Source of the DNA: Euzebya tangerina
Lineage (GTDB): Bacteria > Actinomycetota > Nitriliruptoria > Euzebyales > Euzebyaceae
Length of the DNA: 64,000 nt
NCBI RefSeq assembly: GCF_003074135.1
Contig: NZ_PPDK01000001.1
Location: 1,736,001-1,800,000 of the forward strand
Direction of reading: 5' to 3'
Numbering within the stretch: the stretch's first letter is position 1; the number at the start of each line of letters is the position of its first letter. Shown here in pieces: positions 2,402-9,503 of the stretch. Under the pieces are notes generated by a model, which made no database searches, had not been told where the DNA came from, and saw only the letters and a program-made list of their open reading frames with translations. Made by a program: the position numbers and the translations under genes.

Positions 2402-4396
2402 ATGACCACAGTCAGTCACCGCGGTCCTCGGTCGCTCGTCCTCGGATGTGCCGGGGTCCTGCTCCTCACCGGCCTGTTCCTCGTCATGATCGCGGGATCC
2501 GCGGAGGCGCAGGAGGAGGTCGAGGTGCGCATGCTGGACAACTCCTACGATCCGCTCTCGATCAGCGTCGCGCCGGGCGGGGACGTGGTCTTCGTCAATG
2601 AGGGGCGGGTCGACCACAACGTCCTGGCCGTGGACGGCTCCTTCGACTCGACGGCCGAGGACGGCCAGAACACCGCGCCGGGCGAGGCGTTCACGGTCAC
2701 CGTCCCCGACGAGGACGGCGCCGTCGACTACTACTGCTCCCTGCACGCCACGCTGGACGAGTCGGGGGAGTGGCAGGGCATGGTCGGCACCCTGCTGGTC
2801 GGCAACGTCCAGCCGGAGGAGACCGGGGAGACCACGGGTGCCGGCGGTCGAGCGTCGACCTCACCGAGCGAGTGGACCGGCGACACCGTCCGGGTGCCCG
2901 AGGAGTTCCCGACCATCCAGTCAGGCGTGGACGCCGCGCTTCCCGGTGACCTGGTCCTGGTGGGACCTGGGATCTACCGCGAGGCCGTGTCCGTCACCAC
3001 GCCGGGACTCACCATCCGAGGCACGGACCGCAACACGGTCATCCTCGACGGCGAGTTGACCCGCGAGAACGGATTCGTCGTCACCGCGGACGGCGTGGCC
3101 ATCGAGAACATGACCGCTCGCGGGTACACCGTGAACGGCTTCTTCTGGAACGGCGTGGTGGGGTACCGCGGGTCCTACCTGACCGCGATCGACAACTGGG
3201 TGTACGGGATCTACGCCTTCGACTCGGTGGACGGTCTGTTCGAGCACTCCTATGGCTCGGGGTCCTATGACGCCGGGTTCTACATCGGCCAGTGCAACCC
3301 CTGCGATGCCGTCATCACCGACGTGGTCGCGGAGTACAACGGGCTCGGCTACAGCGGGACGAACGCCTCCGGCAACATCTGGATCGTGGACTCGGTCTGG
3401 CGGCACAACGTGGCGGGCATCGTGCCGAACACCCTGGACTCCGAGCTGCTCCCGCCCACCCGCGACGTGGTCGTGGCCGGCAACTACATCCACGACAGCG
3501 GCGAGGTGGGGCAGGCCCCCTCGAAGGTGGCGGAGTGGTCGGCCTACGGCAACGGCGTCGTCCTGGCCGGTGTCCGGAACACGCTCGTGCGCAACAACCT
3601 GATCGTGAACAGCCCGACGTCCGGCGTGCAGGTGGTGTCGAACATCGACGCGAGCTTCTGGCCATCGGGAGGCAACGAGGTTCGCGACAACGTCATCCGC
3701 GGATCCGGCCGGGCCGACATCACCTTCGGCGGGCCCGGAGAGGCTGGCTCGTGTGCGGCGGACAACGATGCCGACACGACCATCCCCTGGTCCGCTGGTC
3801 TCCTGCACAACTGCGACGGGATCAACCTGCCGTTGCCGTGGGGGCTGGCGACCTCCTCCGATGCGCTGGGCCGGATCGCCCAGGCGGTGCACGAGCAGAA
3901 CCCGCAGCTGGAGCACGGCGAGGCCCCCGACCCGGACCTCGACTTCGAGCAACTTCCCGGCGGGGAGGAGGCCGAGGTGACGCCGGCGGTGAACGTCTTC
4001 GACTCGCTGGACTTCGACCCGGATGAGATCACGACCCCGGTGCTGGACGAGGGGCTCGAGTTGGACGAGCGACGGCCTGTTGTGTTCGGGGTGGCGGTCG
4101 ACGGTGGGTTCTGGCCGGTGTGGATGGGCGCGCTGCTGTGGTGGGTGCCGCTGGCCGTCTGGGTGCTCGGTGGCGCGTGGATCATCTGGCGGGTCTGGCG
4201 CTCGGACCGCGGCGTCGTCGGGAAGATCGGCTGGTCGGTGGGTGCGGTGACCCTGCCGATGCTGGGTGTCGTGGGCTACGCGGTCGCCGGAAACCGCGCG
4301 GCGCCGCTGGGCCGCCGGCTCGCAGTCGGGCTGGGCGGGCTGGTTCTCTGGCTCGTCGTCGTCGTGGTCACGCTGCTGGTCGGAGGGGTCCTGTGA
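2402..4396 (+). CDS. Secreted cupredoxin / right-handed beta-helix protein with C-terminal membrane segments
   Basis: The start is taken at ATG 2402; ATGs at 2351 and 2378 are also in frame. The 664-residue product has a signal peptide (hydrophobic about 12-31, AEA near 36). A plastocyanin-like domain follows (about 38-135) with copper-ligand candidates: His in VDHNV near 71, then Cys and His of YYCSLH near 112 and Met in GMVG. A NosD/CASH-type parallel beta-helix covers about 170-500 (repeated motifs such as DNWVYGI and RNNLIVNSP). After an acidic linker come about three transmembrane helices and a short tail. It is probably anchored outside the cell. Its stop overlaps the start of the multicopper oxidase, so the two are likely co-translated. 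The substrate is unknown; electron transfer or copper delivery to the oxidase is inference. Confidence 0.82.
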   Translation: MTTVSHRGPRSLVLGCAGVLLLTGLFLVMIAGSAEAQEEVEVRMLDNSYDPLSISVAPGGDVVFVNEGRVDHNVLAVDGSFDSTAEDGQNTAPGEAFTVTVPDEDGAVDYYCSLHATLDESGEWQGMVGTLLVGNVQPEETGETTGAGGRASTSPSEWTGDTVRVPEEFPTIQSGVDAALPGDLVLVGPGIYREAVSVTTPGLTIRGTDRNTVILDGELTRENGFVVTADGVAIENMTARGYTVNGFFWNGVVGYRGSYLTAIDNWVYGIYAFDSVDGLFEHSYGSGSYDAGFYIGQCNPCDAVITDVVAEYNGLGYSGTNASGNIWIVDSVWRHNVAGIVPNTLDSELLPPTRDVVVAGNYIHDSGEVGQAPSKVAEWSAYGNGVVLAGVRNTLVRNNLIVNSPTSGVQVVSNIDASFWPSGGNEVRDNVIRGSGRADITFGGPGEAGSCAADNDADTTIPWSAGLLHNCDGINLPLPWGLATSSDALGRIAQAVHEQNPQLEHGEAPDPDLDFEQLPGGEEAEVTPAVNVFDSLDFDPDEITTPVLDEGLELDERRPVVFGVAVDGGFWPVWMGALLWWVPLAVWVLGGAWIIWRVWRSDRGVVGKIGWSVGAVTLPMLGVVGYAVAGNRAAPLGRRLAVGLGGLVLWLVVVVVTLLVGGVL

Positions 4397-5628
4397 GCAC
4401 GGATGAGCCCGGCTCACCGCATGGTGGGGAACCTGACCTTCGTGGTGGGGAACCTGACCTTCCTGGTGGGGAACCTCACGGTCCAGACCTGCAGCAGGGT
4501 CCCCCAGACCTGCAGCAGGGTTCCCCGCCGACGGGGGCCAGGCTGGATCGCAGAGCCGCCCTCCGCCGGGTCGGAGGTGGAGGCCTCTCCCTCTTGGGAG
4601 CTGGCATCGTCGCCGGGTCCGTCGGGACCCATGCGGCCGCCCACGCCACCGCTGGCTCCGACCAGGGCCCAGCCGATCTCTACGGCGGCACACACCCCGC
4701 CGGCCATCTGGGTGCCCAAGACCTGACCGTTCAGGGAGGCGACCGCGGCGGGGTCCTCTCCAGCGGCCTGCCGGTCGGCGATGCTGCTGGCCCGTACGCC
4801 GGCCCGTACGCCATGCCCGAGCGAATGCCGCCGGACGCCTTGGATGCGCTCACCGTCCCGCCACCTCCGACGACCGGCCCGGTCGACATCGAGATGGAGG
4901 TCGTCGAACGGCCCCACCAGATCTCCCGTTCCTTCACCCTCCCACAGGCCTGGACCTACAACGGAACCCTTCCCGGCCCCACCATCCGGGCCACCGAGGG
5001 CCAGACCGTCCGAGTGCACTTCACCAACCGGACCGCCCACGACCACAACCTGCACTTCCACGGCCGGCACGCACCCGTCATGGACGGCTGGGAACCGATT
5101 CCACCCGGCGGGGAGACCGTCTACGAGATCGAGGCCGGTCCCGCCGGCGTCCACCCCTACCACTGCCACACGATGCCCATCGACGCGCACATCGCGCGTG
5201 GCCTGTACGGGATGTTCATCGTCGACCCACGAGGGGGCCGGCCCGACGCGCACGAGGTCGCGCTGACGCTCGGCGGCTTTGACATCGATGGCAGCGGCCG
5301 GAACGATGTGTACGCCTACAACGGGATCGCCGGATTCTACGAGGCGCACCCGATCCGGATCCCCACCGGCGAGCCGGTCCGCGCCTATGTGATGAACTGC
5401 ATCGAGTACGACCCGTTGGCCTCGTTCCACCTGCACGCCCAGACCTTCGACGTGTACCCGGCGGGGATGGGTGACGCGCCGGCGTGGCACACCGATGTGC
5501 TGAGCCTGGGCCAGATGGAGCGGGCGATGCTCGAGTTCTCCCTTCCTGAGGTCGGCCGGTACATGTTCCACCCGCACCAGCACTCGATCGCCCATCGCGG
5601 GGCCATGGGTTGGTTCGCAGCAGTCTGA
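4393..5628 (+). CDS. Two-domain multicopper oxidase, Tat-exported
   Basis: The GTG at 4393 overlaps the preceding stop (GTGA), giving 411 residues. The first 50 residues are a Gly/Glu/Pro/Gln repeat (units GGEPDL and PDLQQG). They precede a twin-arginine signal (LDRRAALRR near 51-59 plus a hydrophobic stretch). Domain 1 holds HFHGRH and HPYHCHT (His257-Cys258-His259), then RGLYGMFIV. Domain 2 holds FHLHAQTF and HPHQH (393-397). The type-1 copper cysteine is therefore present only in domain 1. This resembles the type C two-domain oxidases described from Nitrosomonas and Arthrobacter. The enzyme oxidises a substrate and reduces O2 in the periplasm or outside the cell. The substrate is not predictable; phenols or Cu(I) are options. 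NirK-like nitrite reductase is less likely. Confidence 0.85.
   Translation: MSTDEPGSPHGGEPDLRGGEPDLPGGEPHGPDLQQGPPDLQQGSPPTGARLDRRAALRRVGGGGLSLLGAGIVAGSVGTHAAAHATAGSDQGPADLYGGTHPAGHLGAQDLTVQGGDRGGVLSSGLPVGDAAGPYAGPYAMPERMPPDALDALTVPPPPTTGPVDIEMEVVERPHQISRSFTLPQAWTYNGTLPGPTIRATEGQTVRVHFTNRTAHDHNLHFHGRHAPVMDGWEPIPPGGETVYEIEAGPAGVHPYHCHTMPIDAHIARGLYGMFIVDPRGGRPDAHEVALTLGGFDIDGSGRNDVYAYNGIAGFYEAHPIRIPTGEPVRAYVMNCIEYDPLASFHLHAQTFDVYPAGMGDAPAWHTDVLSLGQMERAMLEFSLPEVGRYMFHPHQHSIAHRGAMGWFAAV
4424..4532 (+). repeat. Short in-frame tandem repeats in the oxidase N-terminus
   Basis: Three 21-base units beginning GGTGGGGAACCT lie at about 4424-4484. Two 22-24-base units around AGACCTGCAGCAGGGT follow to 4532. 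They encode the GGEPDL and PDLQQG repeats before the Tat signal. Confidence 0.8.
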
Positions 5629-8744: not shown

Positions 8745-9503
8745 ATGTCACGTGCCAAGACGATGGGCCTGGTGCTCATCCTGCTGATGGGGTTGCTCGG
8801 CGTCGGGCAGATCGCCGTTGCCGACGAGAACGTCGACGACCCTGAAGCACCCGAGTTGCCAGACGATGACGACGATGACGATGACGACGACGACGATGAC
8901 AAGAACGACACCAACACCGACACCGGTGGTCCTCGTGTCGTGACCGACCGCGTGGCTGGCGAGACCCGGTTCGAGACCTCGGTCGCCATCAGCCAGTACG
9001 AGTTCCCCGGCGGTGCCTCCGAGGTGTACCTGGCCAACGCCGAGAGCTTCGCCGACGCCGTTGCTGCTGGCTCGCTGAAGAAGGGCCCCGTCCTGCTCGT
9101 GCCCAGCGAGGGCGAGATCCCGCAGGTTGTCCTCGATGAGATCGCTCGCCTGCACCCGCGCAAGGTCGTCGCGCTCGGCGGTGTCTTCGCCGTCAGCGAC
9201 GACGTGCTGGAGCAGGCCGCCGAAGCGGCCGGCCAGCGCGGCAACGGTCGACCCGATCATGACGACGACGAGTCCGATCACGACGACGACTCCGATCACG
9301 ACGACGAGTCCGATCACGACGACGAATCAGAGCACGACGGTGACGAGGGCGCTGGTGACGACGGTGATGACGGCCACCCGGGCGATGAGGGCGACGACGG
9401 TGATGAGGACGACGGTGACGAGGACGACGAGAGTGGCAGCGACGAAGAGACCGACGACGGTGGCGCGGCCGAGCAGCCCGGCGATGGCGAGGGCGAGGGG
9501 TAG
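8745..9503 (+). CDS. Secreted cell-wall-binding repeat 2 protein with Asp-rich and His/Asp-rich tails
   Basis: The 252-residue product starts with a signal peptide (hydrophobic about 8-25, AVADEN). A long run of Asp follows (about 39-52). A single CWB2 (PF04122) domain covers about 62-160 (RVAGETRFETSVAIS, then AVAAGSL and KVVALGGVFAVSDDV). The C-terminal third is a repeat of SDHDDD/E units, then Gly/Asp/Glu-rich sequence. CWB2 domains bind cell-wall polymer and usually occur as three copies; here there is one. The acidic and histidine repeats could bind Ca2+ or transition metals (inference). AAGGAG stands 8 bases before the ATG. Confidence 0.85.
   Translation: MSRAKTMGLVLILLMGLLGVGQIAVADENVDDPEAPELPDDDDDDDDDDDDDKNDTNTDTGGPRVVTDRVAGETRFETSVAISQYEFPGGASEVYLANAESFADAVAAGSLKKGPVLLVPSEGEIPQVVLDEIARLHPRKVVALGGVFAVSDDVLEQAAEAAGQRGNGRPDHDDDESDHDDDSDHDDESDHDDESEHDGDEGAGDDGDDGHPGDEGDDGDEDDGDEDDESGSDEETDDGGAAEQPGDGEGEG
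8866..8900 (+). repeat. GAC/GAT trinucleotide run encoding poly-Asp
   Basis: An uninterrupted series of GAT/GAC codons after the signal peptide of the cell-wall-binding protein. Such runs are prone to slippage in codon units. Confidence 0.8.
9256..9340 (+). repeat. 18-base tandem repeat encoding SDHDDD/E units
   Basis: Units of TCCGATCACGACGACGAC/G repeat about four to five times in frame, making the His/Asp-rich tail of the secreted protein. Confidence 0.75.

Follow-up and report, generated by a model that had tools for sequence, protein, structure and literature searches.

Two overlapping genes on the forward strand of a 64,000-nucleotide stretch of the Euzebya tangerina genome (the whole of this stretch is termed the window here; its host genome comprises 4.78 Mb in 12 contigs) encode a cupredoxin/beta-helix membrane protein and a multicopper oxidase. 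The first, protein 1, extends from an ATG at position 2402 to a stop codon ending at 4396 (664 residues), and the second, protein 2, from a GTG at 4393 to a stop codon ending at 5628 (411 residues). The stop of one and the start of the other are thus combined in the four bases GTGA (4393–4396, forward strand), and the open reading frame coordinates agree exactly with the overlapping pair that a first-pass annotation had placed at 2402–5628.

Protein 1 begins with a predicted signal peptide (residues 1–36; 2402–2509, forward strand, as are all features of the two genes given here) that contains a hydrophobic segment at residues 12–30. A loose lipobox pattern is present in 76 of 101 relatives; unlike most of these, the window's own copy appears to lack a lipobox, because its pattern match falls inside the hydrophobic core and was judged false. 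The signal is followed by a type-1 copper cupredoxin domain (2510–2809) with the ligands H72, C112, H115, and M127, recognized from Pfam and from plastocyanin-like matches. A score of 29 bits for Copper-bind (PF00127), against a cut-off of 21.2, together with the Cys/His/His/Met ligand set, places it among the plastocyanin/azurin-type cupredoxins. The ligand spacing, C-x2-H-x11-M, is longer than that of plastocyanin, and many relatives have a shorter one. The four ligands themselves, on whose retention in orthologues the first-pass annotation had staked its reading, are invariant in 41 of 41 rows of the protein 1 alignment and in every homologue group aligned.

The next domain is a right-handed beta-helix (2879–3826), delimited from Pfam (Beta_helix, PF13229, 38.2 bits against a cut-off of 25.9), a structural model, VIA-align, and conservation. 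It carries a CxxC motif, C298 and C301, that is invariant across all aligned homologues, as well as a near-invariant row of residues (W249, Y271, D274, Y294, Q297, N321, and N343) running along successive coils. A C-terminal membrane tail (4109–4384), evident from hydropathy and from the helices of the model, resembles PLDc_N (PF13396), although the match lies below the cut-off of 23.3 bits in the window's protein (16.3 bits) and above it in the separate tail gene of one Pelagibacterales locus, L096 (27.6 bits). An AlphaFold2 model built with 41 diverse homologues (mean pLDDT 86.8) places the cupredoxin at residues 37–136, the beta-helix at 160–475, and the C-terminal helices at 570–661, so that the three-part architecture read by the first-pass annotation is borne out by both Pfam and model. 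Protein 1 is shown by these features to carry the signals expected of an exported, membrane-anchored protein in which a complete type-1 copper site is fused to a beta-helix.

NosD takes part in the maturation of nitrous oxide reductase, and this component of the NosDFYL system shares with protein 1 the right-handed beta-helix fold class in a copper context: the NosD structure 7osf aligns with a Z score of 27.2 (rmsd 5.6, 294 residues aligned) and 7o17 with one of 25.2 (rmsd 2.7, 268 aligned). Unlike NosD, protein 1 has its own cupredoxin and membrane tail, and it falls well short of the cut-offs of the NosD models (TIGR04247, 28.2 against 300 bits; PF05048, 14.5 against 23.6), so that membership of the family was rejected by score and the earlier label "NosD-like" holds for the fold but not for the family. 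Among curated NCBIfam models, the helix scores best against the TIGR03805 parallel beta-helix family, but its 70.2 bits likewise lie below the cut-off of 141.5.

The closest solved folds are instead those of the AlgE4/AlgE6 mannuronan C-5 epimerases (AlgE4, 2pyg: Z score 31.5, 18% identity). This closeness in fold to alginate epimerases and further enzymes that act on polysaccharides, and the row of aromatic and amide/acid residues conserved over successive coils, are consistent with a polysaccharide-linked redox activity in which the helix would bind or cleave a polysaccharide while the copper proteins oxidize the glycan or an attached aromatic group. The catalytic set of mannuronan C-5 epimerases is Tyr/Asp/His, but no invariant histidine was seen in the beta-helix in the sequence alignment of homologues, and the same fold is common in non-enzymes. 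The activity had been raised as a question because the pair follows sugar permeases. Genes resembling sugar ABC permeases (by Pfam and NCBIfam) do lie upstream of the window pair, yet no homologue of the adjacent permease stands beside it in three genus-mates or in any other relative examined, and the genes upstream differ even among those three genus-mates. The sugar-permease link was accordingly dropped, and with no support from the neighborhood a polysaccharide-linked redox role is improbable. Glycan binding by the beta-helix is a possible function, given that its fold is common to polysaccharide enzymes.

Protein 2 (4393–5628) carries a twin-arginine signal (RRAAL..., 4540–4632), a motif that all 41 paired relatives share at this place, and has only two cupredoxin domains, matched by Cu-oxidase_3 (80.9 bits) and Cu-oxidase_2 (71.9 bits) in Pfam. 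In alignment with the solved enzymes 3gdc and 7rab, domain 1 (4876–5241) provides a type-1 site composed of H218, C258, and H266 with leucine L271 in the axial position, along with the trinuclear ligands H221, H223, H257, and H259; domain 2 (5242–5625) provides H346, H348, H393, and H395 and has no conserved type-1 cysteine motif. All eight trinuclear histidines are present, seven being invariant in the oxidase alignment and H259 conserved in at least 90% of it; in the oxidases of two Gemmatimonadetes loci (L093 and L102), HCD replaces HCH and one trinuclear-site histidine is lost. In this alignment, none of the copper ligands of the closest solved relatives is missing from protein 2. The two-domain oxidase 3gdc shares with it both cupredoxin domains, the domain-1 type-1 copper, and the trinuclear histidines at 36–37% identity over the core, and is matched by the oxidase model with a TM-score of up to 0.88 over the target; the dodecameric oxidase of M. 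hydrothermalis, 7rab, has the same copper layout at 39–40% identity over the core.

The earlier description of a Tat-exported two-domain oxidase is upheld by these matches: judged from its sequence, protein 2 has the layout of a type-C two-domain multicopper oxidase, a type also marked by homotrimeric assembly and O2 reduction, and it is Tat-exported by its signal and predicted to reduce O2. Its placement in type C follows the domain in which the type-1 copper is held, which we take to be the basis of the scheme. The terms type B and type C are used as in PMC3192119. The copper nitrite reductase NirK is also a two-domain cupredoxin relative, from which protein 2 differs by its full oxidase histidine set; with that set present and a score of 79.1 against 296.3 bits for TIGR02376, a NirK function was rejected. 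The nearest solved relatives of the oxidase and of the protein 1 cupredoxin occur within one natural chain, a multicopper oxidase of N. maritimus that ends in a cupredoxin domain (9cck); it is among the top matches of protein 2, and in the profile comparison it is what the protein 1 cupredoxin matches best. That enzyme has neither beta-helix nor membrane tail, whereas the window system consists of two proteins.

How widely the two genes are kept together was assessed with six-frame profiles, independent of gene calls. Among 62 distinct loci in which protein 1 is full-length and strong-scoring and is followed by no less than 2.5 kb of sequence, the oxidase is next on the same strand in 37, spread over at least seven taxonomic groups and always in the order protein 1, protein 2; twelve more strong loci were left unscored because their downstream sequence was too short. 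By the same profiles, this oxidase comes next in none of 32 weaker-scoring homologues. Within 61 genomes of relatives, the window's own included, full-length protein 1 occurs in 18, and the oxidase is adjacent in 16 of these. A wider scan of 84,980 species genomes found loci under the labels Acidimicrobiia, Nitriliruptoraceae, Chloroflexi/Caldilineaceae, Leptospiraceae, Spirochaetaceae, Gemmatimonadetes, Myxococcota, delta- and gammaproteobacterial metagenome-assembled genomes (MAGs), Pelagibacteraceae, and one haloarchaeon, these labels being those of the records, many of which are MAGs.

The association is tightest when viewed from the oxidase. In a set of 396 Actinomycetota genomes, the strong oxidase clade (above 490 bits) is found in ten, which span six genera and are not fully independent, and in all ten its gene comes directly after that of protein 1; a strong-scoring protein 1 (above 680 bits) is found in 20, half of them also with the oxidase. 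In the Actinomycetota sampled, this oxidase clade thus occurs only adjoining a cupredoxin/beta-helix protein; for the solved enzymes 3gdc and 7rab, no description of a comparable partner was found. Since the linkage is conserved, as the first-pass annotation had demanded of its own proposal, pairing by chance is excluded, and the genes of protein 1 and the oxidase are shown to be evolutionarily coupled.

The gene trees point the same way. For the same 41 loci, the trees of proteins 1 and 2 correlate with r of 0.84 (the highest value in 2,000 permutations was 0.23), although such a correlation is also expected from shared vertical descent. In both trees, the genus Euzebya groups with Acidimicrobiia and not with its class-mates, the Nitriliruptoraceae, so the pair has moved between classes as a unit. 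In a tree of 106 protein 1 homologues, the oxidase-bearing loci fall within one clade, inside which absences are nested (SAR11, two order-mates, and others). Across several bacterial phyla, the two genes are passed on together, both by descent and by transfer.

Variations on this arrangement reveal a modular construction. In 101 of 106 loci the cupredoxin and the helix are no more than 4 kb apart, and in 29 the cupredoxin is a separate reading frame, although some of these may be draft frameshifts. The membrane tail is a separate gene of about 100 residues in Pelagibacteraceae and in L088; an extra tail-like gene stands between the protein 1 and oxidase genes in L039, L045, L048, L100, and L101, and a second tail match occupies that position in L068. 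In a distant family, a cupredoxin/beta-helix homologue directly follows a different two-domain oxidase, with overlapping genes (L193, 5392–8071; L194, 6397–8894; L195, 393–2862). The type-1 site of these oxidases appears, from sequence, to be in domain 2, and they represent an independent pairing of the cupredoxin/beta-helix module with another two-domain oxidase.

Protein 1 is also found alone. Whole-genome searches of 19 genomes whose protein 1 locus had no adjacent oxidase recovered a strong oxidase elsewhere in two (in one of which, L097, protein 1 is at a contig edge) and no oxidase match at all in nine, and the oxidase was absent from five of six Pelagibacterales genomes with protein 1, the assemblies in both cases being incomplete. 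In the Pelagibacterales (SAR11) loci L096, L098, L103, L104, L105, and L107, from which the oxidase is absent, protein 1 is accompanied by a separate tail gene and a downstream NlpC/P60 gene. As unpaired genomes often have no such oxidase, protein 1 is best regarded as a wider unit, with the oxidase its frequent but not obligatory partner, and not only as an accessory of that enzyme. The proposal of a dedicated copper or redox pair is supported by linkage and ligands.

The frequent absence of the oxidase also bears, not decisively, against the main rival explanation, copper handover, in which the cupredoxin, the helix CxxC, or both would receive copper at the cell surface and pass it to the oxidase in the manner of NosD, with the oxidase perhaps also detoxifying Cu(I). 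A fold comparable to NosD, the CxxC invariant in every homologue, and the partnering of two different two-domain oxidases all fit a copper donor, as do the SCO1/SenC copper chaperone genes that immediately follow the oxidase gene in L078, L079, and L088 (Pfam having been run on the L079 copy); these neighbors and the CxxC fit copper handling at least as well as electron transfer. The NosD family scores, however, tell against it, and the window genome's own SCO1 gene is located elsewhere, away from the pair. Moreover, a complete Cys/His/His/Met site typically serves electron transfer and not copper donation. Copper handover is best viewed as rather unlikely.

A sister clade of the oxidase in other Actinomycetota (L196, L197, L198, L210, and L211) occurs without protein 1. 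A DtxR-type metal repressor stands beside it in L211 (by Pfam) and in L196, L198, and L210 (by eye), a ZIP-like transporter in L211 (by Pfam, below cut-off) and in L197 and L198 (by eye), and a cytochrome c follows in L211. This neighborhood suggests metal-regulated oxidation for the sister clade and, by extension, that protein 2 might be an oxidase of Fe, Mn, or Cu for which protein 1 is merely a surface anchor. Yet the sister clade has no protein 1, and a mere anchor would need no invariant type-1 copper site; this alternative is very unlikely.

Other neighbors are more restricted. Just upstream of protein 1, genes for CoxG, XdhC/CoxI, MoCF_biosynth, or a Mo-hydroxylase large subunit are found in L061–L063, L069, L073, L074, L085, L086, and L207 and in L119 and L121; this link, confined to one Acidimicrobiia clade and the latter two freshwater loci, was not used. 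In place of the oxidase, a DUF1996 gene follows the freshwater actinobacterial beta-helix homologues L112, L116, L119, L121, L122, L124–L126, and L128–L132, but it was rejected as a copper clue because fungal DUF1996 mutants are unaltered in Cu2+ sensitivity (PMC4738358). In the window itself, a short protein encoded at positions 8745–9503 combines a cell-wall-binding repeat (CWB2) with very long tracts of Asp and of His/Asp.

The reading favored here, tentatively and at somewhat short of even confidence, is that the pair forms a cell-surface copper electron-transfer system running from the cupredoxin through the oxidase to O2. The cupredoxin of protein 1 would hand electrons singly to protein 2 at the type-1 copper of its domain 1, and protein 2 would collect four and reduce O2 to water at its trinuclear center; the beta-helix would hold or select the electron donor or position the cupredoxin, the membrane tail would retain the pair at the surface, and where a lineage has no such oxidase, its surface cupredoxin would pass electrons to a different acceptor. 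The contact between the proteins, the direction of flow, and the donor are steps that we infer. Electron transfer is supported by copper sites that are complete in both proteins and kept throughout the family; by directional linkage, congruent trees, and an oxidase clade never seen without protein 1 in the 396 genomes; by pairing that is restricted to a single clade in the tree of protein 1, inside which absences are nested; and by the independent pairing of the module with a second two-domain oxidase. The natural joining of a related oxidase and cupredoxin in 9cck, and a cupredoxin that stays beside the helix even where it is a separate reading frame, argue in the same direction. Against it, the beta-helix has no known redox cofactor that would point to the electron source, the oxidase cannot be the only acceptor of protein 1 given the several genomes (of incomplete assembly) that have protein 1 without one, and two Gemmatimonadetes oxidases depart from the HCH motif with HCD. 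A role of the conserved helix row in docking the oxidase is not favored, as most of its residues are equally invariant in lineages without the enzyme.

A broader proposal, speculative and held with distinctly less confidence, is that of a widely transferred, undescribed surface redox module in which the CxxC and groove of the helix would take electrons or copper from an extracellular donor and deliver them through the fused type-1 domain to interchangeable two-domain oxidases, with the same core serving without this oxidase in SAR11 and others. Searches of open-licence papers on the cupredoxin/beta-helix and oxidase pair, on TIGR03805, and on the Euzebya multicopper oxidase returned nothing on the pair, nor was a described function for the invariant-CxxC beta-helix family found in that literature. 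The separate domains are known, whereas the fused family and its conserved pairing with two-domain oxidases of two kinds appear to be undescribed. Annotation domain by domain would yield a "beta-helix protein" beside a "multicopper oxidase" and so hide a single unit, one that spans several phyla and whose first half is also carried by SAR11 lineages of very small genome size. For type-C two-domain oxidases, a defined partner offers a direct route to the physiological electron donor or copper source.
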